From Serratia liquefaciens (GTDB taxonomy: Bacteria; Pseudomonadota; Gammaproteobacteria; Enterobacterales; Enterobacteriaceae): a DNA stretch of 64,000 bases. The stretch is taken from NCBI RefSeq assembly GCF_027594825.1, contig NZ_CP088930.1:310001-374000 (forward strand), in the 5' to 3' direction. Positions 29,023 through 44,834 of this stretch are shown here, one piece after another (positions within the stretch are counted from its first letter, which is position 1; every line of letters starts with the position of its first letter). The position numbers and the translations under genes were made by a program. The notes under the pieces are model-generated. The model searched no databases, was not told the DNA's origin, and saw only the letters and a program-made list of their open reading frames with translations.

Positions 29023-30228
29023 ATGACAAGCCAGACAGTCCCTCAACGTACCGCGCAGAGTATTACCGATGCCGGACAGGCGCTGGAGACCGCCCATCGG
29101 CTGGCGACAGAATTCAGTCCCGGTGCCGCCGAACGTGACAGCCAACGACGGCTGCCGGTTACCGAACTGGCCGAATTGTTCGCCTCCGGGCTTGGCGGGA
29201 TCACCGTCCCGCGTGAATTTGGCGGCCCGGCGCTGTCAAATCGCGTTCTGGCGCAGGTCATCGTCATTCTCAGCCAGGCCGATGCCTCGATCGGTCAGGT
29301 GCCGCAAAATCACTATTACGCACTGGAAGTGCTGCGGGTCAACGGTTCAAAGCGTCAGCAGCAACGTTTGTATCAGGAAGCGCTGGCCGGGGTGCATTTT
29401 GGCAATGCGCTGGCGGAATTCACCAGCAAAGCCGCTCACCAGCGGAGTACCGCGCTATCCCGGCATCAGGGGCAATGGCACCTGAACGGCCAAAAATTTT
29501 ACGCCACCGGCGCACTCTATGCCGGGCGCATCCCAACCGCCGCGCTGGGTGAGGACGGTAAAGAGCAATTGGTGTTTTTACCGCGCAATACGCCGGGTTT
29601 GACCATTACTGACGACTGGTCGGGCTTTGGCCAACGCACCACCGGCAGCGGCAGCGTGGCGTTAAACCATTGTCCGGTCGATGAAGAGGATATCGTGCCT
29701 TTCCAGACTGCGTTTGAACGGCCCACGCCGGTGGGCCCGCTGGCGCAGATTATGCACGCCGCCATCGATCAGGGCATTGCCAAAGCGGCCTGGCAAGACA
29801 TGTTGCAGTTTGTCCGTACTCGTTCCCGTCCGTGGATTGACTCTGGGGTCGAACAGGCCAGCGATGACCCGCTAACGCTGGATCGCATAGGCAAAATCTC
29901 CGCTCGAATTCAGGCCGGCGACGCCTTGCTGGAAGTGGCGGGCGAAGCGGTCGACGCCGCACAGCGCCACAGCGATGCACAGTCGGTGGCGGAAGCCTCG
30001 ATTGAAGTTGCCAGAGCGCGCGCCTGGACCACCGAAGTCTCGCTGGCCGCCGGCAATCTGCTGTTTGAGTTGGCCGGTAGCCGCGCCACTGTGCAGGAAT
30101 ACAACCTTGACCGCCACTGGCGCAATGCCCGCACTCATACCCTGCACGATCCGGTGCGCTGGAAATACCCGGCAATCGGCAATTACGTTTTAAACGGGGT
30201 GTTGCCACCGCGTCGGGGGACCTTGTAA
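29023..30228 (+). CDS. SfnB-family sulfur-acquisition flavin oxidoreductase, copy 2
   Basis: Second SfnB/DszC-like protein, 401 residues, clearly a tandem paralogue of the preceding gene: GLGGITVPREFGG, QVPQNHYYAL, GQKFYATGALYAG, DDWSGFGQRTTGSGS and HWRNARTHTLHDPVRWKY recur at matching positions. Start ATG 29023 follows AAGGAA; the frame is open further into the previous gene but those codons are out of its frame and not homologous. The stop TAA overlaps the start of the monooxygenase gene (TAATG). The pair may act on different sulfur compounds or as a heteromer; the sequence does not decide. Confidence 0.88.
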   Translation: MTSQTVPQRTAQSITDAGQALETAHRLATEFSPGAAERDSQRRLPVTELAELFASGLGGITVPREFGGPALSNRVLAQVIVILSQADASIGQVPQNHYYALEVLRVNGSKRQQQRLYQEALAGVHFGNALAEFTSKAAHQRSTALSRHQGQWHLNGQKFYATGALYAGRIPTAALGEDGKEQLVFLPRNTPGLTITDDWSGFGQRTTGSGSVALNHCPVDEEDIVPFQTAFERPTPVGPLAQIMHAAIDQGIAKAAWQDMLQFVRTRSRPWIDSGVEQASDDPLTLDRIGKISARIQAGDALLEVAGEAVDAAQRHSDAQSVAEASIEVARARAWTTEVSLAAGNLLFELAGSRATVQEYNLDRHWRNARTHTLHDPVRWKYPAIGNYVLNGVLPPRRGTL

Positions 30229-31598
30229 TGAGCGCTATTGCCAAAGAAGTTCTGCTGAACGCCTTCAACATGAACTGCGTCGGCCATATTCATCACGGCA
30301 TGTGGACTCATCCACAGGATCGTTCCACCGAATTCAACCAACTGGGCTACTGGACCGAATTGGCGCAGCTGCTGGAGCGAGGCCTGTTCGACGGACTGTT
30401 TATCGCCGATATTCTCGGCGTTTATGATGTTTACCAGCAGAATATTGCCCTGACCGCCCGCGAGTCGATACAGCTGCCGGTCAACGACCCGCTGCTGCTG
30501 GTGTCGGCCATGGCGGCGGTCACTCGCCATCTGGGGTTCGGCATCACCGCCAACCTCAGCTATGAAGCCCCCTATCCCTTTGCCCGACGGCTGTCGACGC
30601 TGGATCATCTGACCCAGGGACGTATCGGTTGGAATATCGTGACCGGTTATCTCGACAGCGCCGCCCGCGCCATGGGGCTGAACGAACAGGTACCTCACGA
30701 TCGCCGCTACGACCAGGCCGATGAGTTTCTCGACGTGGCCTATCAGCTGTGGGAAGGCAGTTGGGAAGACGGGGCCGTATTGGCTGACCGACAACGGCGA
30801 ATCTACGCTGATGCGCAGAAGATCCATAAGGTGATCCATCGGGGAGAATTCTATCAGGTGGAAGGTTATCACCTGTCGTCGCCTTCACCACAGCGTACCC
30901 CACTGCTGTTCCAGGCGGGCAGTTCGTCACGTGGCATTCAATTCGCCGCTCGCCATGCGGAATGCACCTTCGTGAATCACGCCACGCCGGCGGTGATGAA
31001 AGCCCAGGTGGACAAGTTGCGCAACGCCGCGGTGGCCGCCGGACGTCAGCGTCAGGATTTGAAAGTCTTTATGGGGGTCGGCGTTATCGTCGCCCCCACA
31101 GCCGCGGAAGCTCAGGACAAATATCGCGAATATCTGCGCTATGCCAGTCCGGAAGCCGGCCTGGCGCATTTCTCCAGTTCTACCGGCATCGACCTCTCGC
31201 GTTTCGGGCTCGACGATCCGATCCAGACCGGGCCGACCCAGGCCATTCAATCCGTGACCCAAACCTACCGCGGCTGGACCCGGCGCCAACTGCTGGAACA
31301 GCACGCTATGGGCGGCCGCTACCCACTGGTGGTGGGCGATCCCCAGCAGGTGGCCGATGCCTTGCTGCAGTGGATTGACCAGGCCGATATCGACGGTTTT
31401 AACCTGACGCGAATCGTTAATCCAGGCAGCTACCGCGATTTTATTGATTTGGTGGTGCCGGAATTGCAATCGCGCGGGCGATACAAGACCGCCTACCGTG
31501 CCGGCAGCCTGCGGCAAAAACTGTTCCAACAACAAGACCGATTACCCCCAAGTCACCCGGCTGCCCGCTGGCGTCTGGGTGCTCCATTAACGGTTTGA
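30228..31598 (+). CDS. LLM-class FMN-dependent monooxygenase (SnaA/DszA/DmoA type)
   Basis: Luciferase-like flavin monooxygenase of 456 residues, NtaA/SnaA/DszA/DmoA family, which uses FMNH2 to oxidise substrates such as sulfones, dimethyl sulfide or nitrilotriacetate. Family segments: NAFNMNCVGHIHHGMWTHP, LSTLDHLTQGRIGWNIVTGYL, PHDRRYDQADEF, HRGEFYQVEGYHLSSPSPQRTP and LLFQAGSSSRG. In this operon a sulfur compound is the likely target. No dedicated flavin reductase is seen in the window, so reduced flavin must come from elsewhere. The start overlaps the stop of the upstream oxidoreductase. Confidence 0.9.
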   Translation: MSAIAKEVLLNAFNMNCVGHIHHGMWTHPQDRSTEFNQLGYWTELAQLLERGLFDGLFIADILGVYDVYQQNIALTARESIQLPVNDPLLLVSAMAAVTRHLGFGITANLSYEAPYPFARRLSTLDHLTQGRIGWNIVTGYLDSAARAMGLNEQVPHDRRYDQADEFLDVAYQLWEGSWEDGAVLADRQRRIYADAQKIHKVIHRGEFYQVEGYHLSSPSPQRTPLLFQAGSSSRGIQFAARHAECTFVNHATPAVMKAQVDKLRNAAVAAGRQRQDLKVFMGVGVIVAPTAAEAQDKYREYLRYASPEAGLAHFSSSTGIDLSRFGLDDPIQTGPTQAIQSVTQTYRGWTRRQLLEQHAMGGRYPLVVGDPQQVADALLQWIDQADIDGFNLTRIVNPGSYRDFIDLVVPELQSRGRYKTAYRAGSLRQKLFQQQDRLPPSHPAARWRLGAPLTV

Positions 31599-31630
31599 AC
31601 CACTTACTTTTCTTTTAAAGGGACAACATC

Positions 31631-32443
31631 ATGACCATAGCCAATCTGGCACTAAAAATACTGTTCCCGGCGCTGCTGGCCTTCTCAGGCTCGGTGGCGG
31701 CGGCCAATGACTACAGTGGCGCCCTGAAGGTCGGCACCACCGCCGCCTTCGCGCCGCCGTTGGAAGTGGCGGCGGAAGAGGCTCGCAAACAAGGGCTGAA
31801 GGTGGACATTATCGAATTCAGCGACTGGACCGCTCCTAACGTCAGCCTGGAAAACGGCGATATCGACGTCAACCTGTTCCAGCACCTGCCGTTCCTGCAT
31901 AACGCCAACAAAGAAGGCAATTTCCATCTGGTGGCCTATGCCCCTGCGATCATCAATAACGTCGGGTTGTATTCCAAGAAACATAAAAGCATTGCCGAAC
32001 TGCCGGACGGTGCCAGCGTGGCGATTGCCAATGACGTGATTAACGGCGGGCGCGGTCTGTTGCTGTTACAAAAGGCCGGGCTGATTAAGCTCAAACCCGG
32101 TGCGGGTATCCAGGCGACCCAGGCCGATATTGTCAGTAACCCCAAACACATCAAGATTATCGAGGTAGAAGCGGTGCAATTGGCGCGCACCCTGGAAGAA
32201 GTGGATCTGGCGCAGGGCTATCCCCACTACCTGCGGCTTTCCGGCACCGTCGATCCCAACAGCGCCCTGCTGTTTGACGGCCTGGAGAACCCGGAGTACG
32301 TGATCCAATTCGTGATCCGCGACGGTCATCAGGACGATCCGCGTCTGCGCAAGTTTGTCGACGTGTATCAGCATTCCCCGGTGGTACGCGCGAAGCTGGA
32401 CAGTTTCTACGGCAAACTGTATCAGCCAGGCTGGAGTCAATAA
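31631..32443 (+). CDS. MetQ/NlpA-family substrate-binding protein without lipobox
   Basis: Periplasmic binding protein of 270 residues, MetQ/NlpA family, for methionine or another sulfur compound. The signal peptide (FPALLAFSGSVAAA, cleavage about residue 25) has no cysteine, so unlike E. coli MetQ the product should be soluble in the periplasm and not lipid-anchored. The mature part shows LKVGTTAAFAPPLEVAAEE, DVNLFQHLPFL and AIANDVINGGRGLLLLQKAGLI. SD AAGGGA precedes the start. The ATPase gene starts 3 bp after its stop codon. Confidence 0.9.
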   Translation: MTIANLALKILFPALLAFSGSVAAANDYSGALKVGTTAAFAPPLEVAAEEARKQGLKVDIIEFSDWTAPNVSLENGDIDVNLFQHLPFLHNANKEGNFHLVAYAPAIINNVGLYSKKHKSIAELPDGASVAIANDVINGGRGLLLLQKAGLIKLKPGAGIQATQADIVSNPKHIKIIEVEAVQLARTLEEVDLAQGYPHYLRLSGTVDPNSALLFDGLENPEYVIQFVIRDGHQDDPRLRKFVDVYQHSPVVRAKLDSFYGKLYQPGWSQ

Positions 32444-32446
32444 GTT

Positions 32447-33538
32447 ATGTCCAGCCTGGTCCTGACTCCGCCGGAGGCCCTGGTTGCCGATGAGCCGGTT
32501 CGCCACCTGGATGATACTCATCTGCGCTTTACCCGGCTCAGCAAGCGTTATCCCGGCCAACTGACCGATGCGCTAAAGGAAATTAACCTCAGCATTCGCC
32601 GAGGGGAAATTTTCGGCATCATCGGCCGTAGCGGCGCGGGGAAATCCTCGTTGATCCGCACCATCAACCGATTGGAACGCCCCAGCGGCGGCAGCGTCGA
32701 GGTCGATGGCGTCGATATTGATCGTCTGAATGAAGATCAATTGGTGGCCTTCCGACGGCGTACCGGCATGATTTTTCAGCATTTCAACCTGTTGTCGGCC
32801 AAAACCGTTCGGCAGAATATCGAGCTGCCCCTGCGTGTGGCGGGCGTGCCCCCCGCAGAACGGCGCAGCCGAGTGGACGCGCTGCTGGAGCTGGTCGGGC
32901 TACGCGACTACCCGGACGCCTACCCGGCACAGCTTTCCGGCGGGCAGAAACAGCGGGTCGGTATCGCCAGGGCACTGGTGCACAACCCTGAACTGTTGCT
33001 GTGCGACGAGGCCACCTCGGCACTCGATCCGGAAACCACCCGCGCCATTTTGGCCTTACTGCAACGCATCAACCGAGAGTTCAACATCACCATCGTGCTG
33101 ATCACCCACGAAATGGAGGTGATCCACGATATTTGCCACCGGGTCGCCGTGCTGGAGCGCGGCGAAATTATCGAGTACGGCCCCGTCTGGCAGGTGTACG
33201 GCAATCCGCAGCAGGAAACTACGCGTATCTTGTTGACCCCGGCGCACGACAGCCTGCCCGAGATACTGGCCGGACGAATTACCGCTACGCCATCGGCGCC
33301 GGATTCGCCGTTGTTAATCCGATTGCGTTATCGCGGTCTGGGGGCTTCGCTGGAACTGAATCGGGTGCTGGCGGCTTTTCAGGGCAATGTGACACTGGTC
33401 GAAAGCGCCATTGAGCATATTCAGGGAAGGGCCATAGGGTACTTGCTGTTAAGCGTGACACCGTCACCGTTCGCATCCGCTATTCCACAAACGCTGGCCG
33501 ACAGCGTGGAGGTACTGGGCTATGTCACTGCTGCTTGA
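32447..33538 (+). CDS. MetN-like ABC importer ATPase
   Basis: ATP-binding subunit of 363 residues of a methionine-uptake-type importer. Walker A GRSGAGKS is at 60-67, signature LSGGQKQR at 163-170 and Walker B LLLCDE at 183-188. A C-terminal NIL/ACT-like domain (about 280-360) in MetN senses methionine and inhibits transport. An N-terminal extension of about 25 residues precedes the ABC domain. The gene overlaps the permease gene by 17 bp. In this sulfur operon the true cargo may be methionine, its sulfoxide or another organosulfur compound. Confidence 0.92.
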
Positions 33539-34175
33539 CCGGCTGTGGGCCGGATTTCTCGATACGCTGCTGATGGTGGGCGTTTCTTCCCTGCTGGCAC
33601 TGGCGCTGGGGCTGCCGCTGGCGGTTGTGCTGGTGGTCAGCGAACGCGGTGGGCTCTATGAACAAGTCGGGGTTCAACGGGTACTCGGCTGGCTGGTGAA
33701 TCTGTTTCGCTCGATCCCCTTCTTGATCCTGATGGTCGCCTTGATCCCGTTCACCCGCATGCTGGTCGGCACCTCTTACGGCGTCTGGGCAGCGGTAGTA
33801 CCGCTGACGGTCGCCGCCATGCCGTTCTTTGCGCGCATCGCCGAAGTCAGTCTAAGGGAGGTGGATCACGGCCTGATTGAGGCGGCACAGGCCATGGGAT
33901 GTCGTCGTGGGCACATCATCCGCCACGTGCTGCTGCCGGAAGCGATGCCCGGCATCGTCAGCGGTTTCACCATTACTCTGGTCACCATGATCAACGCTTC
34001 GGCGATGGCCGGGGCTATCGGAGCCGGCGGTCTGGGTGATTTGGCTTACCGTTATGGTTACCAGCGTTTCGACACCCAGGTCATGCTCACCGTCATCGTG
34101 GTGCTGGTGGCTCTGGTCACCCTGCTGCAATTTTTTGGCGATCGGCTTTCGCGCCGATTAAACCACCGGCAATAA
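33522..34175 (+). CDS. MetI-like ABC importer permease
   Basis: Inner-membrane permease of 217 residues with about five hydrophobic segments. It carries the EAA loop [25 protein letters not shown] and [17 protein letters not shown], the hallmark of MetI. GGAGG nine bases before ATG 33522 lies within the end of the ATPase gene, which it overlaps by 17 bp. Together with the two preceding genes it makes a complete MetNIQ-type importer. Confidence 0.93.
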
Positions 34176-34200
34176 CCCTTTTGTTAAATGGATATTGATG

Positions 34201-35151
34201 ATGAATAAATTGAAAGCCTCTTTGATCGCCGCGTCGCTGCTGTTGGGCACTTGTGCTCTGTCGAACGCGGCGGCACAGGAAACACCACAGCAAATCACCA
34301 TTGGCTATCAGAAAGCCAATATCTTTGCCCTGTTAAAATACCGTGGCTCGCTGGAGAAGGCCCTGGCGCCTCAGGGCATCAAGCTGCGTTGGATTGAATT
34401 CCCCGCTGGGCCGCAGATGCTGGAGGGACTGAACGTGGGCAGCATTGACCTGGCGGCGACTGGCGATGCACCGCCGGCCTTCGCTCAGGCGGCCAAGGCG
34501 GATCTGATTTATCTGGGGCATTCGCCGGCCAGCCCGAAAACCGAAGCCATTGTGGTGCCCCAGGATTCGCCGATCAAAACCGTCGCCGACCTCAAAGGCA
34601 AACGGGTGGCGCTGAACAAAGGTTCCGACGTCAACTACCTGCTGGTCAGCGCGCTGGAACAGGCCGGATTAAGCTATAAGGACGTTACCCCGGTGTATCT
34701 GCCGCCCAGCGACGCTCGCGCCGCCTTCCAGCGTGGCAGCGTCGACGCCTGGGTGATTTGGGATCCTTATTACGCCGAAGTGCAAAGTCATGCCAACGCT
34801 CGCCTGCTTAAAGACGCCGAAGGCCTGGTACCGCATTACACCTTCTACCTTGCCAGCCGTCACTTTGCCGAAACCTACCCTGACAGCGCCAAGCTGGTGC
34901 TCGACCAGTTGGGAGAACTGAGCACCTGGGCCAACGCGCATCAGGATGAAGCGGCGAAAATCTTGTCACAGAGTACCGGATTGGATCAGGCTATCTGGGC
35001 CAAAGCCCTCGCCCGCATGCCGTTTGGCAGCCAGCGCATGACCCCGGAGGTGTTCGCGCAACAGCAGCAACTGGCGGATAAGTTTACCGCCATCGGTCTC
35101 CTCCCGGTCAAGGTGGATGTCGGCAGCGCACGCTGGTCAGAAGATAAGTAA
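34201..35151 (+). CDS. SsuA-like aliphatic sulfonate/taurine-type binding protein
   Basis: Periplasmic binding protein of about 317 residues, SsuA/TauA/NrtA-like family. A signal peptide ends near NAAA (about residue 25). The mature protein begins ITIGYQKANIFALLKYRGSLE and contains GPQMLEGLNVGSIDLAATGDAPP and VDAWVIWDPYYAE, typical of SsuA. Start is ATG 34201 or the adjacent ATG 34198, after GGA. No SsuB or SsuC partner follows, so it must use a permease elsewhere or share one. Last gene of the sulfur operon, followed by a terminator. Confidence 0.9.
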   Translation: MNKLKASLIAASLLLGTCALSNAAAQETPQQITIGYQKANIFALLKYRGSLEKALAPQGIKLRWIEFPAGPQMLEGLNVGSIDLAATGDAPPAFAQAAKADLIYLGHSPASPKTEAIVVPQDSPIKTVADLKGKRVALNKGSDVNYLLVSALEQAGLSYKDVTPVYLPPSDARAAFQRGSVDAWVIWDPYYAEVQSHANARLLKDAEGLVPHYTFYLASRHFAETYPDSAKLVLDQLGELSTWANAHQDEAAKILSQSTGLDQAIWAKALARMPFGSQRMTPEVFAQQQQLADKFTAIGLLPVKVDVGSARWSEDK

Positions 35152-35309
35152 GTGACTGATTATTTATCTATTAATTCGACTAGCAAAGTCATATTCGGCA
35201 TTTAACCGCCGGGGAGATTTAGATTATGATTCTTGCCTGTCTCTGAGGTTTGTTTCAGGGCCTGTCTACCGGAATTTTTTGTCCTTGTTTTGTTCGTCGT
35301 GAACGCTTG

Positions 35310-35339
35310 GCCGCACCTCTGTGCGGCTTTTTATTTTTT
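35310..35339 (+). terminator. terminator of the plus-strand sulfur operon
   Basis: GCCGCAC (35310-35316) and GTGCGGC (35321-35327) with a CTCT loop, followed by a long T-rich tail. It lies 160 bp after the last stop codon. Confidence 0.88.
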
Positions 35340-35363
35340 GGGGTACTGGCCTGCTGATGGCAT

Positions 35364-35395
35364 AAAAAAACCGGCACCGATTGCTCCGTGCCGGT
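35364..35395 (-). terminator. terminator of the encapsulin operon
   Basis: On the minus strand ACCGGCAC (35395-35388) pairs with GTGCCGGT (35377-35370), followed by a T7 run, 20 bp after the cysteine desulfurase stop codon. Confidence 0.9.
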
Positions 35396-35415
35396 TGTGC
35401 CTTATCGCGCCGGGG

Positions 35416-37245
35416 CTAGCGCCCTTTGGCCAGCTTATGCAAGGTGGCGGCCAACAGATCCACTTCCTCGTGGGTGTTGTAAAATGCCAATGACGGCCGC
35501 ACCGTAGTTTCTACGCCGAAGCGTCGCAAGATCGGTTGAGCGCAATGATGACCGGATCGCACCGCAATGCCCTCACGGTTGAGCGCATTCCCCACCTCTT
35601 CGGTGCGATAACCACTCAAAACGAATGACAGCACGCTGGCCTTATTGGCCGCAGTGCCAATCAGTCGCAGGCCGGGAATGCGGATCAACTGCTCGGTGGC
35701 ATACTCCAGCAGCTCATGCTCGTAGCGGTTGATGTTATCCAGCCCCAGACGTTCGACATAGTCCACCGCCGCCCCCAATCCTACCGCATCGGCAATGTTA
35801 CCGGTGCCGGCTTCAAATCTGGCCGGTGCCGGTTGGTACAGCGTTTTCTCAAAAGTGACGTCGGCAATCATGTTGCCGCCCCCTTGCCACGGCGGCAAGG
35901 TTTCCAGCAGCTCAGCCTTGCCGTACACCGCCCCAATACCGGTAGGAGCAAACACCTTATGGCCGGAGAACACGTAAAAATCCGCGTCCAGCGCCTGCAC
36001 GTTGACCTTCAGGTGAGAGACCGCCTGCGCACCGTCGACCAAAACCCGGGCGCCAGCCTGATGAGCCAGTGCAATCACCTGCTCCACTGGCGTAACCGTG
36101 CCCAAGGCATTGGAGACCTGAGTGATCGAAACCAACCGGGTGCGCGGTGACAATAACTTGCGGTACTCGTCCAGCAGGATTTGCCCGCTGTCATCAACCG
36201 GGATCACCCGAATCTTGGCTCCCACGCTGGCCGCAAGCTGCTGCCAGGGCACAATGTTGGCGTGGTGCTCCAACTGCGAAACCACGATTTCATCTCCCTC
36301 GCCGATGTATTTACGACCAAAGGTATTGGCAATCAGGTTAATGGCCTCGGTTGCGCCACGGGTGAAGACGATTTCCGCCGGTGATTTGGCCCCCAGAAAA
36401 CGGGCCACGCTGTTTCTGGCCCCCTCATAGGCATCCGTTGCTCTGGCGGCAAGCTCATGCGCCGCGCGGTGAATGTTTGAGTTTTCATGGGCGTAGAAAT
36501 ACGCCAGCCGATCGATAACCACCTGCGGCTTATGGGTGGTCGCCGCATTGTCCAGCCACACCAGGGGTTTACCCTTGACCCGTTCTGCCAGGATGGGAAA
36601 GTCCCGGCGTACGGCATGCACATCAAAGCGGCTGCGAGCCCCGTGCTGCGGTACCCCTTCACGCCATTGGTGCCCCTGCTCGAGGAAATAATATTGCCCG
36701 CTGGCCGCATCTTGCGCGACGCCGCTGACCGGCGCTGAGTTTGGGGGAAACAATGCGCCAATAACCGCTTCCAGTTCGCCCTTTATCGCCCCGGCAAAGG
36801 GTTGATCGCTCAGGTGTTGCTGGCCGGTCAGCGCCTGACTTGCCAGCCCCGCCAGCCCGCTATCCGCAGAGTCCTGCCGCTGTTGAGTCGGGTTATCGCT
36901 GAGAAAATAGAACCCGGGCGTTGCTTCAGGAACCCGCGGCTGAGGCAGCGTTGGCGGTGCCAAAAAAGCCTGACGCTGTTGCCCCAGCTGACGGCCGGAC
37001 GGCGCCTGTGCCTCCAGAGCGTCAGTAGCAAGCGCAGCCTCCAGAACGGGCGCAGCGGTCTGCGGTAATACCCTTGTTGCGCTTTCGCTGCCTGCGGCTT
37101 GTTGCAGCCCGGCGCCCAGTTCCTTTCCAGGCAGCGTGCTGAAGATCTGATTAGCCAGCGTGGCCAACGCGTTAACGTCAGGCAAACCGGCCGGCGGCGC
37201 GGCTTGGTGAGGCAGTGCGTTATTTGTAGCTGTCTGGATAGTCAT
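35416..37245 (-). CDS. encapsulin-cargo cysteine desulfurase (SufS-like, long N-terminal extension)
   Basis: A 609-residue cysteine desulfurase, about 200 residues longer than SufS. The catalytic part (about 207-609) is type II SufS-like: PLP lysine Lys430 (FSGHKVFAPTG), His in LEHHANIVPW, and catalytic Cys568 (RSGHHCAQP). Residues 1-206 are low-complexity, rich in Ala, Pro, Gln and Leu, with short islands: LPDVNALATLANQIF, PEATPGFYFLSD and ASGQYYFLEQ. The latter two share a Gly-aromatic-Phe-Leu core. In family 2A encapsulin systems such an extension docks the enzyme to the inner shell wall. The gene overlaps the shell gene by 26 bp. The enzyme takes sulfur from cysteine, probably to store it as elemental or polysulfide sulfur in the capsid. 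Confidence 0.95.
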   Translation of the reverse strand: MTIQTATNNALPHQAAPPAGLPDVNALATLANQIFSTLPGKELGAGLQQAAGSESATRVLPQTAAPVLEAALATDALEAQAPSGRQLGQQRQAFLAPPTLPQPRVPEATPGFYFLSDNPTQQRQDSADSGLAGLASQALTGQQHLSDQPFAGAIKGELEAVIGALFPPNSAPVSGVAQDAASGQYYFLEQGHQWREGVPQHGARSRFDVHAVRRDFPILAERVKGKPLVWLDNAATTHKPQVVIDRLAYFYAHENSNIHRAAHELAARATDAYEGARNSVARFLGAKSPAEIVFTRGATEAINLIANTFGRKYIGEGDEIVVSQLEHHANIVPWQQLAASVGAKIRVIPVDDSGQILLDEYRKLLSPRTRLVSITQVSNALGTVTPVEQVIALAHQAGARVLVDGAQAVSHLKVNVQALDADFYVFSGHKVFAPTGIGAVYGKAELLETLPPWQGGGNMIADVTFEKTLYQPAPARFEAGTGNIADAVGLGAAVDYVERLGLDNINRYEHELLEYATEQLIRIPGLRLIGTAANKASVLSFVLSGYRTEEVGNALNREGIAVRSGHHCAQPILRRFGVETTVRPSLAFYNTHEEVDLLAATLHKLAKGR

Positions 37246-38152
37246 GATATTTGCTCACATCAACATCGTCTAAAACGGCAACGGCATCTTCAGTCAGAAC
37301 CGCCAATGAGCAGTAAAGCGAGATCAGGTAGGAAGCGATCGCATTGCGGTTAATGCCCATAAACCGCACCGACAACCCCGGGCTCTGCTCACCGGCGACG
37401 CCCGGCTGATACAGACCAATGACGCCCTGACGCTTTTCCCCGGTACGCAGCAGAATAATTTTGGTTTTACCCTCTTCGTCGATCGGCAGCTTATCCGAAG
37501 GGATCAGCGGCAAGCCGCGCCAGGTCAGGAACTGCGAGCCAAACAGGCTGACGGTTGGCGGCGGTACGCCACGGCGCGTGCACTCACGCCCGAAGGCCGC
37601 GATGGCTAATGGATGAGCCAGGAAGAAGCCGGGCTCTTTCCATACTTTGGTGATCAATTCATCCAGATCGTCCGGCGTCGGCGCCCCGGTCAGCGTAGAG
37701 ATACGTTGGGCGTCATCAACGCTGGCCAATAAACCGTATTCAGGGTTATTGATCAGCTCGTTTTCCTGGCGTTCTTTAATGGTTTCAATCGTCAAACGCA
37801 GCTGCTCGCGGATCTGATCGTGCGGGCTGCTGTACAAATCCGACACCCGGGTGTGTACATCCAGAATGGTGGTTACGGCATTGAGGAAATATTCACGTGG
37901 CGCCTCTTCGTAATCCACATAGGTCTGCGGCAATAACCCCTCGTCGCGCTGCGAGCAGGCCACCTGCACATTTAATGGATTTTTGACCTTGTTAAGACGA
38001 AATATCCCCGCTTCGACCGGTGTCCACTGCAGCAAATGCACCAGCCAGCGTGGCGTGAGAATAGATAATTGCGGGACGGTCTTCGTCGCGTTAGCCAATT
38101 GCCGCGCGGCATTATCCCCTAATGCAAGCCGGGCATCATTTTGTTGAGACAT
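37220..38152 (-). CDS. family 2A encapsulin shell protein (SrpI type)
   Basis: HK97-fold shell protein of 310 residues, homologous to Synechococcus SrpI and Mycobacterium major membrane protein I. Recognised by NAARQLANATKTVPQLS, TPRWLVHLLQWTPVEAGIFR, LDVHTRVSDLYSSPHDQIRE, ELINNPEYGLL, TPDDLDELI, WKEPGFFLAHPLAIAAF, TWRGLPLIPSDKLP and GLSVRFMGINRNAIASYLI. No cyclic-nucleotide-binding insert is present, so it belongs to family 2A and not 2B. An extended N-arm precedes the E-loop. SD AGGAGAAA lies 8 bases before the ATG. Sixty copies would form an icosahedral compartment about 25 nm wide for the co-encoded desulfurase. Confidence 0.95.
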   Translation of the reverse strand: MSQQNDARLALGDNAARQLANATKTVPQLSILTPRWLVHLLQWTPVEAGIFRLNKVKNPLNVQVACSQRDEGLLPQTYVDYEEAPREYFLNAVTTILDVHTRVSDLYSSPHDQIREQLRLTIETIKERQENELINNPEYGLLASVDDAQRISTLTGAPTPDDLDELITKVWKEPGFFLAHPLAIAAFGRECTRRGVPPPTVSLFGSQFLTWRGLPLIPSDKLPIDEEGKTKIILLRTGEKRQGVIGLYQPGVAGEQSPGLSVRFMGINRNAIASYLISLYCSLAVLTEDAVAVLDDVDVSKYHDYPDSYK

Positions 38153-38245
38153 GGTTGTTTCTCCTGAAAAAATAGGCTGGTGATAAATAATGATTAATTG
38201 CCGGTTAAATAGCGCGTTAAATAGATGCTGGAATTATTGATTTTG

Positions 38246-38267
38246 TTTCGCAGACCTCACTGCGAAA
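38246..38267 (-). promoter_or_regulatory. hairpin between serine acetyltransferase and encapsulin genes
   Basis: TTTCGCAG (38246-38253) and CTGCGAAA (38260-38267) form a perfect 8-bp stem with a 6-base loop in the 142-bp gap before the shell gene. There is no T-run on the minus strand. It may be an mRNA processing or stabilising element that raises shell expression, or an operator for an internal promoter. Confidence 0.4.
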
Positions 38268-38294
38268 TAATCAGGATTAATAAAATACGCCAAA

Positions 38295-39248
38295 TTAAAT
38301 TCCAGAGCCGAATTCATGACTGTCGCTCTGAATATTTGCCTGGCGAATATTACTGCCGGGTTTGACGCTGCGCGTCAGCCAGACATTACCGCCAATGGAA
38401 GACCCTTTCCCAATAGTGATCCTGCCCAACAACGTAGCGCCGGCGTAGATCACCACATCATCTTCAATAATCGGATGACGCGGCTGCCCTTTCTGCAGAA
38501 TGCCGGACTCTTCGGTGACAAAGCGCTTGGCTCCCAACGTGACAGCCTGATAGATACGCACCCGTTTACCGATAATCGCAGTTTCTCCAATCACGACGCC
38601 GGTGCCGTGATCGATAAAAAAGCCGTCATCAATTTGCGCTCCGGGATGAATATCGATACCGGTTTCTCCGTGAGCCTTTTCGGCGATGATGCGTGCCAAC
38701 AGGGGAACGCCTGCCCGATAGAAATAGTGTGCCAAACGGTGATGGATAATGGCGTTAACACCAGGGAAACACAGTAAAACCTCATCCACACTCCGTGCCG
38801 AAGGGTCTCCGTGATAGGCGGCCAGAATATCGCTGTCCAACCGGCGGCGAATGGCGGGCAGCACGGCGGCGAATTGACGCACCAATGTCACCGCCTGTGT
38901 ATTCAGTGCATCCCCCTGCTCGCCGTCTTCGTCCTCGGAACAGCTAAAACCAAGCGCCAGCCGCACCTGAATCAATAGAGCATTCAGCACGGCATCCAAT
39001 GCATGGCCGACGAAGTAATCTTCACTTTCATGGCGCAGATCGTCCGGGCCCAGGCGCATGGGAAATAATATCGCCCGCAGCGATTCGGCAATCTCGTTGA
39101 CTGCGCTCTTCGATGGCAGCTCCTTTTGCCCGGAAACTGAGGCCTGACCGCTGTGTTCACGCCAGTGCAATCTCGCTGAACGCAACTCGTTGACGATATC
39201 GGCCAGTTGCCAGTTGGTATTTTCTTTTAACGGTAAAAAGCGAGTCAT
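38295..39248 (-). CDS. serine O-acetyltransferase (EpsC/SrpH type)
   Basis: Serine acetyltransferase of 317 residues, which makes O-acetylserine, the carbon skeleton for cysteine. The C-terminal left-handed beta-helix begins near 195 (IDIHPGAQIDDGFFIDHGTG). By comparison with CysE the catalytic pair is Asp199 and His214, and VVIGETAIIGKRVRIYQAVTLGAKRF follows. The longer N-terminal helical domain and the segment SVDEVLLCFPGVNAIIHHRLAHYFY are typical of EpsC/SrpH rather than E. coli CysE, and the CysE feedback C-tail is absent. In family 2A encapsulin operons it is the standard partner that raises cysteine supply for the desulfurase. Confidence 0.93.
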   Translation of the reverse strand: MTRFLPLKENTNWQLADIVNELRSARLHWREHSGQASVSGQKELPSKSAVNEIAESLRAILFPMRLGPDDLRHESEDYFVGHALDAVLNALLIQVRLALGFSCSEDEDGEQGDALNTQAVTLVRQFAAVLPAIRRRLDSDILAAYHGDPSARSVDEVLLCFPGVNAIIHHRLAHYFYRAGVPLLARIIAEKAHGETGIDIHPGAQIDDGFFIDHGTGVVIGETAIIGKRVRIYQAVTLGAKRFVTEESGILQKGQPRHPIIEDDVVIYAGATLLGRITIGKGSSIGGNVWLTRSVKPGSNIRQANIQSDSHEFGSGI

Positions 39249-39301
39249 AATTCCCTCTGTTTATCTGATAACACCCCATGACCCACCAAGGACAAGCGCC
39301 G

Positions 39302-39739
39302 TTAATACGTTTTAAACCAGGGCAGATGCCGCGCAGCTTCGAAGCCACCCAGCACACCGTAAACCTGCGTATAACCGGCTTTCTGGGCGGCTAACACCGC
39401 GTCCGCAGAACGTTTTCCGGTTTGGCACAGCAGGAGCAGCGGGTGCTGCTTGTCGACAACCTTGCTTAATTCAAGGAAAAAACGCGGATTGCGGATTTTG
39501 TTCGAACCGGTCAGCCAGGGAACCAAAGAGGATTGTTCAACATAGCCAAATGTCTTTCGCTCTTCCGGACTGCGGATATCCACCAAGACGGCTGACCCGC
39601 TGTTGAACAGTTGCCAACTGGCCTCCGGTGTCAAGTCACGCTCAAAGACGTCAGCATTTTGCGTGCCGGGGTTATTCGCATTCGCGTTGGGATTGTTTAT
39701 AAACGTCTGCGCCGTTGTGTAATGTGGCGATATGGACAT
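39302..39739 (-). CDS. rhodanese-domain sulfurtransferase of encapsulin operon
   Basis: Single-domain rhodanese of 145 residues, with the active-site cysteine in LLLLCQTGKRS (Cys105 from the chosen start). A 30-residue Asn-rich N-terminal tail (NNPNANANNPGTQNADVF) precedes the domain. Start ATG 39739 follows GGAGG by 5 bases; an in-frame GTG two codons earlier overlaps that ribosome site and is rejected. First gene of the minus-strand encapsulin operon. It could load or unload sulfane sulfur. The Asn/Pro-rich tail might be a second cargo tag, which is speculation. Confidence 0.92.
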   Translation of the reverse strand: MSISPHYTTAQTFINNPNANANNPGTQNADVFERDLTPEASWQLFNSGSAVLVDIRSPEERKTFGYVEQSSLVPWLTGSNKIRNPRFFLELSKVVDKQHPLLLLCQTGKRSADAVLAAQKAGYTQVYGVLGGFEAARHLPWFKTY

Positions 39740-40087
39740 ATTCACCTCCGGTATATTCTCTATTTTTCAGTAAGGTTGTTTTCCTTCATTAACCTCAATC
39801 TATTACCCTTTCTCAGTGACAATAAATAACTTTTCATTAGGGCTTATAGTAAAAGCGTCTAGTTCGCCTTAGCTAAATTAACGCTAATAAAAACTGTTTT
39901 TTCACTTATCCCTTTGCCTTTAATCTGGTCATGTTACAGCGCGCTGTTACCCGTTTTCACCCGTTGATCACATTACGGGTAACACAGTTTGTTAACACTC
40001 TTCAGCGTGATATCTGTCGCAAAACCGCCTGCCGAAAACCGCTTTTATAGCATTAACCCAGCAACGCTAATTTTGACAGGTGAAACC
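39740..40087. promoter_or_regulatory. divergent control region of encapsulin operon and 2-hydroxyacid dehydrogenase
   Basis: AT-rich 348-bp region. A cluster of related sites lies at 39933-39983: near-palindrome GTTACAGCGCGCTGTTAC (39933-39950, one mismatch) overlapping GTTACCCGT (39946-39954), which is mirrored by ACGGGTAAC (39975-39983). This looks like an operator array. It lies close to the plus-strand gene and about 195-245 bp from the rhodanese start. No convincing promoter pair was fixed. Confidence 0.45.
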
Positions 40088-41038
40088 ATGACCAACTCTG
40101 CTCCCGATAAAGTGCTGTTAATTGCCCCAGTGATGGAAAACCTGTTGGCCCGTCTCGAAGCTAATTATGCGGTACACCGGCTGTATGAGCAGGCTGACCC
40201 AGCCGCTTTTCTGGCTGAAAAAGGCGACGATTTCCATGCGATAGTCACCCGTGGTGATATCGGCGTAACCACACCGGTACTAGAACAATTACCCAACCTC
40301 GGGCTGATTGCGGTGTTTGGCGTAGGTACTGACGCGATTGATCTGAATTACACCCGTAAACACGGCATTGCCGTCACCATTACCTCGGGCGCCTTGACGG
40401 AAGACGTGGCGGATATGGCTCTGGGATTGTTGCTGGCTACCGCTCGTCAGCTGTGCCACAACGATCGTTTTGTGCGTGAAGGTCGCTGGCTGAAGGAAGC
40501 GCCTGGCCTGTCGGTGCAGGTCAGCGGCAAACGGCTGGGCATTTTCGGCATGGGCAATATCGGCCGCGCCATCGCCCAACGCGCCGCCGGTTTCAATATG
40601 CGCATCCAATACGCCAGCCGCACGCAGGACAGTTCGCTGCCCTATCGCTATTTCCCGGACCTGCTGGCATTAGCGCGGGAAAGCGACTTCTTTATCATTG
40701 CCATTTCCGGCGGTAAAGACAGCGCCGGCCTGGTGGACAAGGCGGTGTTCGACGCCCTGCCGCCGCATGCCCTGGTGATTAACATTGCTCGCGGCAGCAT
40801 CGTTAACCAACCCGACCTGATTGCCGCCCTGCAAAGCGGCGCCATCGCCGGTGCCGGGCTGGACGTTTATGCTCACGAACCCGAGGTGCCTGCCGAACTG
40901 ATCGCCATGGAAAACGTGGTGCTGCAACCGCATATCGCCAGCGCCACCCAGGAAACCCGGCAAAAGATGAGCGATATCGTGTTTAGCAACGTTGAAGCTT
41001 TCTTCAATCGGGCGCCGCTGCCCCACGCCATTGAATAA
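40088..41038 (+). CDS. D-2-hydroxyacid dehydrogenase (GhrB/hydroxypyruvate reductase type)
   Basis: NAD(P)H-dependent 2-hydroxyacid dehydrogenase of 316 residues, reducing 2-keto acids such as glyoxylate, hydroxypyruvate or 2-ketogluconate. The nucleotide site is GMGNIGRAIAQRAAGF (154-169). The catalytic set is Arg235 (INIARGS), Glu264 (AHEPEVP) and His282 (QPHIASAT). Start ATG 40088 follows AGGTGA; the upstream frame has no ribosome site. An MFS transporter follows 91 bp later, so the pair may take up and reduce a sugar acid. The exact substrate is not readable from sequence. Confidence 0.9.
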   Translation: MTNSAPDKVLLIAPVMENLLARLEANYAVHRLYEQADPAAFLAEKGDDFHAIVTRGDIGVTTPVLEQLPNLGLIAVFGVGTDAIDLNYTRKHGIAVTITSGALTEDVADMALGLLLATARQLCHNDRFVREGRWLKEAPGLSVQVSGKRLGIFGMGNIGRAIAQRAAGFNMRIQYASRTQDSSLPYRYFPDLLALARESDFFIIAISGGKDSAGLVDKAVFDALPPHALVINIARGSIVNQPDLIAALQSGAIAGAGLDVYAHEPEVPAELIAMENVVLQPHIASATQETRQKMSDIVFSNVEAFFNRAPLPHAIE

Positions 41039-41129
41039 TTAACGCGTTTTCTTTTCGATTTTATTACTGCCGAACCACAGAACCTCTTTAACGAGAGGTT
41101 CTCCCTGCGCCCTGTAAAGAGAGATCGCC

Positions 41130-42437
41130 ATGGATAATAAAATACCCAACACCCGCTGGCTGCGGGTTATTGCCCCGATCCTGATCGCCTGCATTATTTC
41201 CTTTATGGACCGGGTTAATATCAGTTTCGCACTGCCCGGCGGTATGGAAAGCGATCTGGGCATCACCAGCCAGATGGCCGGGCTGGCCAGCGGCATCTTC
41301 TTTATCGGCTACCTGTTTTTGCAGGTTCCCGGCGGGCGCATTGCGGTCAACGGCAGCGGCAAGCGTTTTATTGCCTGGTCGTTGTGCGCCTGGGCGGTAG
41401 TCTCGGTGGCGACCGGTTTTGTCACTAACCACTATCAACTGTTGGTGTTGCGCTTCGTGTTGGGCATTTCCGAGGGCGGCATGTTACCGGTGGTGCTGAC
41501 CATGATCAGCAACTGGTTCCCGGAAAAAGAACTGGGTCGCGCCAACGCCTTTGTCATGATGTTTGCCCCTTTGGGCGGTATGCTTACCGCACCGATTTCC
41601 GGCGCCATCATTAATCAGCTCGACTGGCGCTGGCTGTTTATCCTCGAAGGCCTGCTGTCGCTGGTGGTATTGGCCGTTTGGTGGTTGCTGATCAGCAATC
41701 GTCCGCAGGAAGCACGCTGGTTGCCGGCCCGTGAGCGTGAGTATCTGATCGCCGAACTGACGCGTGAACGGCAAGCGCGCAGCAGCCTGCAGCCGGTCAG
41801 CAAGGCGCCGTTGAGAGACGTCTTTCGCAACAAAGGGCTGATGAAGCTGGTGCTGCTGAACTTTTTCTATCAAACCGGCGACTACGGCTACACCCTGTGG
41901 CTGCCCACCATTTTGAAGAACCTCACCGGCGGTAACATGGCCTCGGTCGGTTTCCTGGCGATTTTGCCGTTCGTCGCCACCCTGTTGGGGATCTACCTGA
42001 TTTCGGTGCTGACCGACAAAACCGGCAAGCGCCGCCTGTGGGTGATGGTTTCTCTGTTCTGCTTCGCGGCGGCGCTGCTGGCTTCGGTGGTGCTGCGTCA
42101 TAACGTGGTGGCGGCCTACATCGCGTTGGTGGTGTGCGGCTTCTTCCTCAAAGCCGCCACCAGCCCGTTCTGGTCAATGCCGGGGCGTATCGCCTCGGCA
42201 GAAGTCGCCGGCGGCGCGCGCGGTGTGATTAACGGACTCGGCAACCTGGGCGGCTTCTGCGGGCCTTATCTGGTGGGGGTGATGATCTACCTGTATGGTC
42301 AGAACGTGGCGGTATGCGCTCTGGCAGTCTCACTGATCATCGCCGGCATCATCGCCTGGCGCTTGCCGAAGGAATGTGACCTGACCGGCAGCGAACCGGC
42401 GCACGACAAGCTGCTGGACAACGCCAAACGGGCCTGA
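41130..42437 (+). CDS. MFS transporter, anion:cation symporter (ACS) family
   Basis: Major facilitator of 435 residues with 12 predicted helices, resembling hexuronate, glucarate and phthalate transporters of the ACS family. The start region has FMDRVNISFALPGG, then GIFFIGYLFLQVPGGRIA and the loop RFVLGISEGGMLPVVLTMISNWFPEKELGRANA region (about residues 108-140). The gene starts with a GAGA ribosome site. Its place between a 2-hydroxyacid dehydrogenase and an RpiR regulator suggests import of a sugar acid under RpiR control. Confidence 0.9.
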   Translation: MDNKIPNTRWLRVIAPILIACIISFMDRVNISFALPGGMESDLGITSQMAGLASGIFFIGYLFLQVPGGRIAVNGSGKRFIAWSLCAWAVVSVATGFVTNHYQLLVLRFVLGISEGGMLPVVLTMISNWFPEKELGRANAFVMMFAPLGGMLTAPISGAIINQLDWRWLFILEGLLSLVVLAVWWLLISNRPQEARWLPAREREYLIAELTRERQARSSLQPVSKAPLRDVFRNKGLMKLVLLNFFYQTGDYGYTLWLPTILKNLTGGNMASVGFLAILPFVATLLGIYLISVLTDKTGKRRLWVMVSLFCFAAALLASVVLRHNVVAAYIALVVCGFFLKAATSPFWSMPGRIASAEVAGGARGVINGLGNLGGFCGPYLVGVMIYLYGQNVAVCALAVSLIIAGIIAWRLPKECDLTGSEPAHDKLLDNAKRA

Positions 42438-42526
42438 ATAACAACGAAAACCACGAGCGGGCTACGGCAAAATTTGCTATGTTAGCCCGCTGATTAAGGT
42501 CTGTTGTTACTCGCTGGATTAGGTCT

Positions 42527-43261
42527 ATGTTTACCCATAAAGCAATCGCCGAACTCAATGCGCTGGAATTGTTGGTCTATAACTACATCACCAAAAACAA
42601 GAACCCGGTGATGTATATGACCATCCGCGAACTGGCCGAGGCCGCCGGGGTATCCACCACTACCGTACTGCGCTTTTGCAAGAAAATGGGCTGCGACGGC
42701 TACTCCGAATTTCGCATCCGTTTTAAGCTGTATCTTGAGCAGACTGAAGCACCGCCGGTGGATTTCGGCACCAGCGAAATCATCAGCTTCTTTAAAAGCA
42801 TTAACAACGACGAATTTAATCAACTGATAGACCAGGCGGTACAGCATATTGCCGCCGCTGAGCGCATTATTTTCGTCGGCGTCAGCACCTCCGGAGCATT
42901 GGGGAAATACGGTGCGCGTTTCTTTTCCAACGTCGGAAAATTCAGCACCCATATCGACGATCCTTATTACCCCATCAATAGCGACATGTATAAAAGCGCG
43001 GTCGCAATAATACTTTCGGTGTCTGGAGAGACCGAAGAAATTTTGCGCCTCGCCAGCCAGTTCAGCCTGCACCACTGCAAAATCATCAGCATCACCAACA
43101 ACGAGACTTCCTCACTGGCGCGCATGGCGGACTTCAACCTCTCTTACCACGTTCCCCCGCAGCTGATCGCCGGGCAACACAATATCACCACCCAAATCCC
43201 GGTCATTTACATTATCGAGACCATCGGCAAGCGGCTGGGGCATATTAATTACGCAAAATAA
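42527..43261 (+). CDS. RpiR/MurR-family regulator with SIS domain
   Basis: Transcriptional regulator of 244 residues. The N-terminal RpiR HTH (about 1-75) contains MTIRELAEAAGVSTTTVLRFCKKMG. A C-terminal SIS sugar-phosphate-binding domain (about 100-240) contains IIFVGVSTSGALGKYGARFF and ILSVSGETEEILRLA. It lies between the transporter and a GH1 phospho-glucosidase gene and probably senses a sugar phosphate to control one or both. Confidence 0.92.
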   Translation: MFTHKAIAELNALELLVYNYITKNKNPVMYMTIRELAEAAGVSTTTVLRFCKKMGCDGYSEFRIRFKLYLEQTEAPPVDFGTSEIISFFKSINNDEFNQLIDQAVQHIAAAERIIFVGVSTSGALGKYGARFFSNVGKFSTHIDDPYYPINSDMYKSAVAIILSVSGETEEILRLASQFSLHHCKIISITNNETSSLARMADFNLSYHVPPQLIAGQHNITTQIPVIYIIETIGKRLGHINYAK

Positions 43262-43280
43262 AACAGCCTGTTTTTTTAAT

Positions 43281-43292
43281 GTGACACGTCAC
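43281..43292. promoter_or_regulatory. palindromic candidate operator before GH1 gene
   Basis: GTGACACGTCAC is a GTGAC/GTCAC inverted repeat with a 2-bp centre; another GTGAC lies at 43315. It sits in the 133-bp gap between the RpiR and GH1 genes. The spacing is not that of a CRP site. Confidence 0.35.
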
Positions 43293-43379
43293 CTGAACGG
43301 TAATTTGTTATATCGTGACATTCCATTTCAGCTTGCTACTATATTCTCATTCCGGCAGTTCAGTGCTTTCTGATAATAA

Positions 43380-44834
<1,455 letters not shown>

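Follow-up and report, generated by a model that had tools for sequence, protein, structure and literature searches.

A chromosomal family 2A encapsulin operon of the cysteine-desulfurase type in Serratia liquefaciens

Does an enterobacterial chromosome encode a complete protein compartment for sulfur, and if so, what would it be for? The question is raised by four minus-strand genes in a 64,000-nucleotide stretch of Serratia liquefaciens DNA (the window; NZ_CP088930.1, positions 310,001 to 374,000, assembly GCF_027594825.1), which sits in a 5.35-Mb chromosome. An earlier model reading made from the letters alone (the sequence-only reading) had called them a complete family 2A desulfurase encapsulin operon, with a shell, a cargo desulfurase, a serine O-acetyltransferase (SAT) and a rhodanese. 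We located all four open reading frames where that reading had put them, using the list of frames and their translations. Each product passes a family model, and the motifs and residues are present (Table 1). We consider it very probable (roughly 0.93) that this is a family 2A encapsulin operon of the cysteine-desulfurase type working as proposed below, and nothing in the sequence contradicts that assignment.

Shell, cargo and accessory proteins

The shell protein scored 545.5 bits against the family 2A model NF041162 (cut-off 380), which it matched over the full length, and 354.6 bits against PF19307 (cut-off 22.8), its sole Pfam match. The 310-residue protein does match the HK97/SrpI profile, on which the sequence-only reading had hinged. 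Alignments with two solved shells ran nearly end to end, at 578.8 bits for 8t6r, which is presumably from Acinetobacter baumannii, and 501.5 bits for SrpI (6x8m). The family 2B model also exceeds its cut-off on this protein (428.2 against 400) with a best stretch that starts at model position 211, and the N-terminal part of the protein aligns with SrpI. The shell is best read as 2A, without the cyclic nucleotide monophosphate (cNMP)-binding domain that would mark 2B. Chance is not an issue at match scores of this size.

An extract of the cryo-electron microscopy study of SrpI (PMC8049743) highlights two residues at the pore (Gly194, Pro196) and two close to the cargo density (Phe262, Tyr273), and describes two positive pore residues (Arg192 and Arg304) as poorly conserved. 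In our alignment the first four correspond to Gly195, Pro197, Phe264 and Tyr275 of the Serratia shell. The pair at the five-fold pore (Gly195, Pro197) and the pair at the three-fold cargo site (Phe264, Tyr275) are invariant in 18 of the 18 shells aligned. SrpI Arg192 is retained as Arg193, which all 18 shells share; Arg304 falls just beyond the end of the alignment.

The cargo scored 897.3 bits against NF041166 (cut-off 800) over residues 1-605. It joins an N-terminal loading domain of about 205 residues and low conservation to a SufS-type catalytic domain, and alignment with the solved cysteine desulfurase 8kg1 (616.9 bits) runs from residue 197 onward. Both published loading motifs were found, LATLANQIF and then FYFL plus YYFL; the loose patterns used are no strict test, as they missed motif 1 in many Betaproteobacterial cargos and motif 2 in several Janthinobacterium and Undibacterium cargos. 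All 16 aligned cargos share Cys568, Lys430 and His328, which we take to correspond to the SufS catalytic residues; two Acinetobacter rows of this alignment begin late owing to the chosen start.

The SAT passed the EpsC model NF041874 (157.5 bits, cut-off 150) and fell below the cut-off of the CysE equivalog model (161.5 against 210.65); it aligned with the solved SAT 3f1x at 252.9 bits, and its DHGTG motif is conserved. The rhodanese-like protein passed PF00581 (cut-off 22.2) and no NCBIfam cut-off. Its active-site loop, C-Q-T-G-K-R, aligned to the CRSGNR loop of the solved rhodanese 8w14. A search for homologues of this protein returned 5 proteins from 24 candidates, the named ones being from Serratia or a compost metagenome. 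Elsewhere in the genome the desulfurase has four more matches and the SAT has one, so the operon genes for these two enzymes are extra copies.

All four reading frames are intact. The rhodanese ATG lies at 39739 with a GGAGG site upstream. The region upstream of it is likely to be the promoter, judging from its composition and conservation; its box reads TATAAG, but TATAAA in G022, among five aligned Serratia genomes, and the region lies inside the inserted block described below. The operon also has its own terminator, as had been claimed: a 9-bp stem capped by 2 further pairs is followed by a U run, and the surrounding 64 nt fold at -24.4 kcal/mol (z -2.5 against shuffled sequences). A separate consensus-based terminator scan did not return this site among its matches. 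In the 142-bp gap between SAT and shell, a stem-loop (about 38246-38267) looked promising by eye but was rejected, not being kept in G022. The sole Rfam match over 30000-44000 was to a eukaryotic internal ribosome entry site family, at 22.2 bits and under the gathering score of 40.

The shell and cargo frames overlap by exactly 26 bp, as had been read earlier, and by comparison with other loci this overlap is a family norm and nothing special to Serratia. Among the nearest loci (80 kept of the 452 relatives found), an ATG stands at the same offset in 72, and of the 79 that have a cargo match, 70 keep the cargo frame open from a start codon at that offset. The shell His codon under the cargo ATG is CAT in 72 of the 73 shells with His there, compared with 167 of the 410 His codons elsewhere in these shells (a naive binomial gives 4e-27, which is not a true probability because the sequences are related). 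Because CAT and ATG are conserved at this offset, the cargo start codon inside the shell gene looks to be held by selection, and translation of the cargo is likely to be coupled to that of the shell, the link proposed earlier. This conserved start codon would be a testable handle on the shell:cargo ratio across the family.

Table 1. Features of the encapsulin locus, in window coordinates
Feature	Position	Strand	Basis or remark
Rhodanese-like sulfurtransferase, 145 aa	39302..39739	-	PF00581, 46.3 bits; aligned with 8w14, 2fsx
SAT, EpsC type, 317 aa	38295..39248	-	NF041874; solved SAT 3f1x
Family 2A encapsulin shell (HK97/SrpI type), 310 aa	37220..38152	-	NF041162, PF19307; shells 8t6r, 6x8m
Family 2A cargo cysteine desulfurase (CyD), 609 aa	35416..37245	-	NF041166; solved desulfurase 8kg1
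Shell stop/cargo start overlap, 26 bp	37220..37245	-	Cargo ATG spans shell codons His303-Asp304
Cargo loading motif 1, LATLANQIF (residue 27)	37141..37167	-	Published motif LARLANEFFS (PMC8049743, extract)
Cargo loading motif 2, copy 1, FYFL (residue 112)	36901..36912	-	Published motif AASPYYFLDG (PMC8049743, extract)
Cargo loading motif 2, copy 2, YYFL (residue 185)	36682..36693	-	
Desulfurase Cys568 codon, predicted catalytic (SGHHCAQP)	35542..35544	-	Invariant in 16/16 aligned cargos
Intrinsic terminator of operon, predicted	35364..35396	-	Stem and U run, fold energy
Upstream region, likely promoter	39740..39945	-	A+T-rich stretch and TATAAG box, conserved in 5 aligned Serratia
Whole block absent from sister genomes	35338..39945	.	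Empty site in G013; near-identical borders in G025

Related operons and the proposed function

The order rhodanese-SAT-shell-cargo on one strand recurs in 62 of the 80 nearest loci. The remaining 18 comprise five Acinetobacter loci with a divergent SAT, ten in which no SAT is matched although no contig end intervenes (among them Azotobacter L016, several Zoogloea loci and further Proteobacteria) and three that are cut short (L021, L025 and L079). A rhodanese is matched in 77 of the 80, two of the three misses (L021 and L025) being at contig ends, and a desulfurase in 79. The sequence-only reading had assigned such systems to cyanobacteria and Acinetobacter. Both have them, but that range was too narrow: a 2021 survey, cited from an extract (PMC8346489), found family 2A desulfurase operons in 12 phyla, 1281 in all and 813 in Proteobacteria, with the genes for SAT and rhodanese enriched above all other accessory genes.

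Comparison of gene order with Synechococcus and Acinetobacter, as suggested earlier, gave the same kinds of protein on plasmid pANL of S. elongatus PCC 7942 (6x8m, 6x8t) and a rhodanese-shell-cargo core in Acinetobacter. The pANL set consists of an EpsC-type SAT, a 2A shell (73% identical), CyD and a rhodanese, and shares the published loading motifs and the pore and cargo-site residues. It runs cysK-epsC-srpI-cyd-rhodanese, with 234 bp between shell and cargo, whereas the chromosomal Serratia operon has the rhodanese first instead of last, no cysK and the 26-bp overlap. The A. baumannii shell is 81% identical, and the Acinetobacter loci (L082-L086) also place a start codon in frame at the 26-bp offset; they differ in that the SAT is divergently transcribed in five of the five among the 80. 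The nearest shells outside the genus (89-92% identical) come from ten Pseudomonas, Azomonas and Azotobacter loci, which share the order in 8 cases and the offset of the start codon in 10. Their rhodanese (38-45% identical) and SAT (58-67%), where found, are more different, and none has an adjacent MetQ-MetN-MetI-SsuA set. The peroxidase encapsulins of enterobacteria, which belong to family 1, are also shells in this group of bacteria but differ in shell family and cargo.

Several variants were observed along the way. On a Variovorax plasmid the order is rhodanese-epsC-regulator-shell-cargo, where a small helix-turn-helix gene between SAT and shell (L185, 4640-4909) is a candidate dedicated regulator; the Serratia gap is too short for such a gene. 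Azotobacter vinelandii CA has two shell/cargo copies with identical shells on one chromosome (L016 and L018), and rhodanese and SAT were matched beside only one of them. In G174, a relative within the order, 650-aa frames next to a desulfurase (C2:404469-406364; L101, L102) match the shell profile at its beginning and end only (19.7 and 76.7 bits) and possibly encode a 2B-like shell. At 3.7-4.1 Mb, three records labelled as A. baumannii plasmids seem to be chromosomes filed under the wrong heading, and we left them out as evidence for plasmid carriage.

From these relatives we infer how the Serratia system may work. Sixty shell copies would assemble, as for SrpI, into a T=1 particle some 24-25 nm in size, and the desulfurase, started inside the end of the shell gene and so probably coupled to shell translation, would be packed by means of a disordered N-terminal domain. 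The narrow five-fold pore would admit cysteine, the desulfurase would strip it of its sulfur, and persulfide or elemental sulfur would be retained in the shell. The SAT may supply O-acetylserine for more cysteine via the cell's general cysteine synthase, and the rhodanese may accept or pass on sulfane sulfur. Storage of sulfane sulfur is a plausible role, and a family 2A encapsulin of Acinetobacter reportedly stores sulfur. According to the extract of PMC8049743, shell and desulfurase of S. elongatus are induced by sulfate starvation, the N-terminal domain is required for loading and encapsulation raised kcat about sevenfold. Two points weigh against this proposal. The role is drawn mainly from that one cyanobacterial study, and 11 of the 80 nearest loci have no SAT match (one of these is truncated by a contig end), with the SAT divergent in 5 others; the SAT is therefore not essential to the system everywhere.

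The main job could instead be containment and channelling, in which a fast desulfurase is kept from the cytoplasm and its sulfur goes only to the operon rhodanese for cofactors or Fe-S clusters. The 2021 survey, as extracted, proposes that role for rhodanese plus shell (PMC8346489), and the frequency of the rhodanese in the nearest loci is in keeping with it. The kcat gain on encapsulation also points this way, and the S. elongatus authors name containment as an option (PMC8049743, extract). On the other side, the operon holds no dedicated sulfur acceptor such as SufE, and a 2025 paper, also cited from an extract, sums up this class of cargos as sulfur storage (PMC12407261). Channelling as the main job is possible but less likely than not. 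That the genes are a decayed or silent relic, recently acquired and unused, is very improbable. Such a relic would fit their patchy presence in the genus (6 of 30 genomes) and the empty site of G013, the closest relative compared, but the frames are intact, the ratio of nonsynonymous to synonymous change (dN/dS) is 0.005-0.12 across the four operon genes, the synonymous distances of shell and cargo are like those of the flanks, and site and order are the same in six Serratia.

There is next to no chance that the shell is a phage or prophage capsid whose neighbours are coincidental. The fold is common to phage capsids, and the PHROGs major head protein model gives a weak match of 28.5 bits, but this compares with 545.5 bits for the family 2A model. 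Shell matches occur in just 2 of 50,697 phage records, no phage family is among the NCBIfam matches listed for ten scanned window proteins, and a desulfurase is the near-constant companion of the nearest shells. A phage origin of the Serratia locus was rejected on the family 2A score and the near-absence from phage records. Two 'Acinetobacter phage MD-2021a' records of 328-379 kb (CAKLQH020000001.1 and CAKLQF020000001.1) carry shell and sufS at 81% identity, and both may be bacterial DNA filed as phage.

Distribution and history of the inserted block

The nearest named shells are from Serratia and are 99-100% identical. NF041162 matched 6 of the 30 genus genomes, and shell matches turned up in 6 of the 392 genomes sampled from the family and in 9 of 394 from the order, 8 of the latter above cut-off; every count includes the Serratia source genome, the six from the genus include two of a single species, and the taxonomic groups presumably follow GTDB. 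PF19307 was matched in 7 of 148 relatives, of which one or more might be 2B, since this model does not separate 2A from 2B. Outside the genus, five genomes from three other genera of the family sample (G050, G493, G553, G643 and G698) share the rhodanese, shell and desulfurase but form a distant, separate lineage with shells 57-58% identical, and a SAT had no match within the stretches of about 3.9 kb examined. Among 20,395 E. coli records there was no match by megablast, which would miss distant copies. The claim that the set is unusual in an enterobacterial genome holds as to rarity, but the set is not unique.

The system itself has already been described, and its patchy presence in enterobacteria is somewhat unusual. 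No study of the Serratia operon was among the papers listed for encapsulins with Serratia or with Enterobacter and family 2, in a collection that lacks most subscription journals. What is new is a 4.6-kb block with natural empty sites, a grouping of its shell with those of Pseudomonadaceae, and strong purifying selection. In G013 the matches left of 35337 and right of 39946 are only 120 bases apart and the operon is absent; in G025 the borders are 35339 and 39954, with 124 bases between them and again no operon. The right flank is present in 14 genus genomes, 8 of which are without the block. All six Serratia carriers have it beside the dehydrogenase gene, and the left neighbour differs in G022. 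Since Serratia is near the standard laboratory enterics, a chromosomal operon with natural empty sites could serve as a clean comparative and genetic test bed.

Synonymous distances were 0.51-0.66 for the shell and 0.69-0.97 for the cargo, similar to the flanking MFS (0.58-0.65) and dehydrogenase (0.87-0.96) genes; those of the SAT (0.84-1.27) and rhodanese (1.22-2.00) were higher than the flanks. The shell had the lowest dN/dS of the compared genes in each of four Serratia comparisons (0.005-0.013), and purifying selection on the operon is strong. By parsimony the 14-genome flank tree needs 3 changes. The shared site, and shell and cargo synonymous distances that resemble those of the flanks, favour a block that has long been in the genus and was lost several times; repeated gain via flank recombination is possible. 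No tRNA or transfer-messenger RNA gene that would point to a tRNA-linked insertion lies within the window.

In the shell tree the Serratia shells group with Pseudomonadaceae shells, with 95% support in the Shimodaira-Hasegawa-like approximate likelihood ratio test (SH-aLRT) of a quick tree; the grouping holds 19 rows, some of them duplicates. This suggests arrival by horizontal transfer from the Pseudomonadaceae side or from a common donor. The tree covers the 80 nearest loci plus order and family members, and a nearer donor may be missing from it.

The neighbouring uptake operon and a conserved element

The encapsulin operon and a MetQ-MetN-MetI-SsuA-like uptake operon (31631-35151, plus strand) stand tail to tail. 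Of 27 genomes, 3 (Serratia, Aquitalea L019 and Vogesella L026) have a MetQ-type gene no more than about 8 kb from the shell, or 2 without the Serratia case that prompted the test, against an expectation of about 0.11 genomes (30 copies in some 126 Mb). This enrichment is only suggestive, since it was the window that prompted the test, and the expectation is uncorrected for other gene types. If the Serratia compartment were now part of an organosulfur-scavenging locus, the shell would buffer sulfur from imported methionine- or sulfonate-like compounds instead of sulfate, and gain or loss of the block would follow shifts in the sulfur diet of a species. We regard this as doubtful. The carrier G022 is without the uptake operon beside its block, and G025 has the uptake genes at the site without the block.

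Just left of the block, about 85 bases ending in a strong terminator (35253-35337, plus strand) are matched in several Serratia genomes, some of them without an adjacent ssuA. This element is a candidate small RNA or conserved 3' element; an Rfam search of it gave no match at E 0.1 or better. G004 and G021 have it shortly before the region that matches window position 42465, and the spot is therefore variable.

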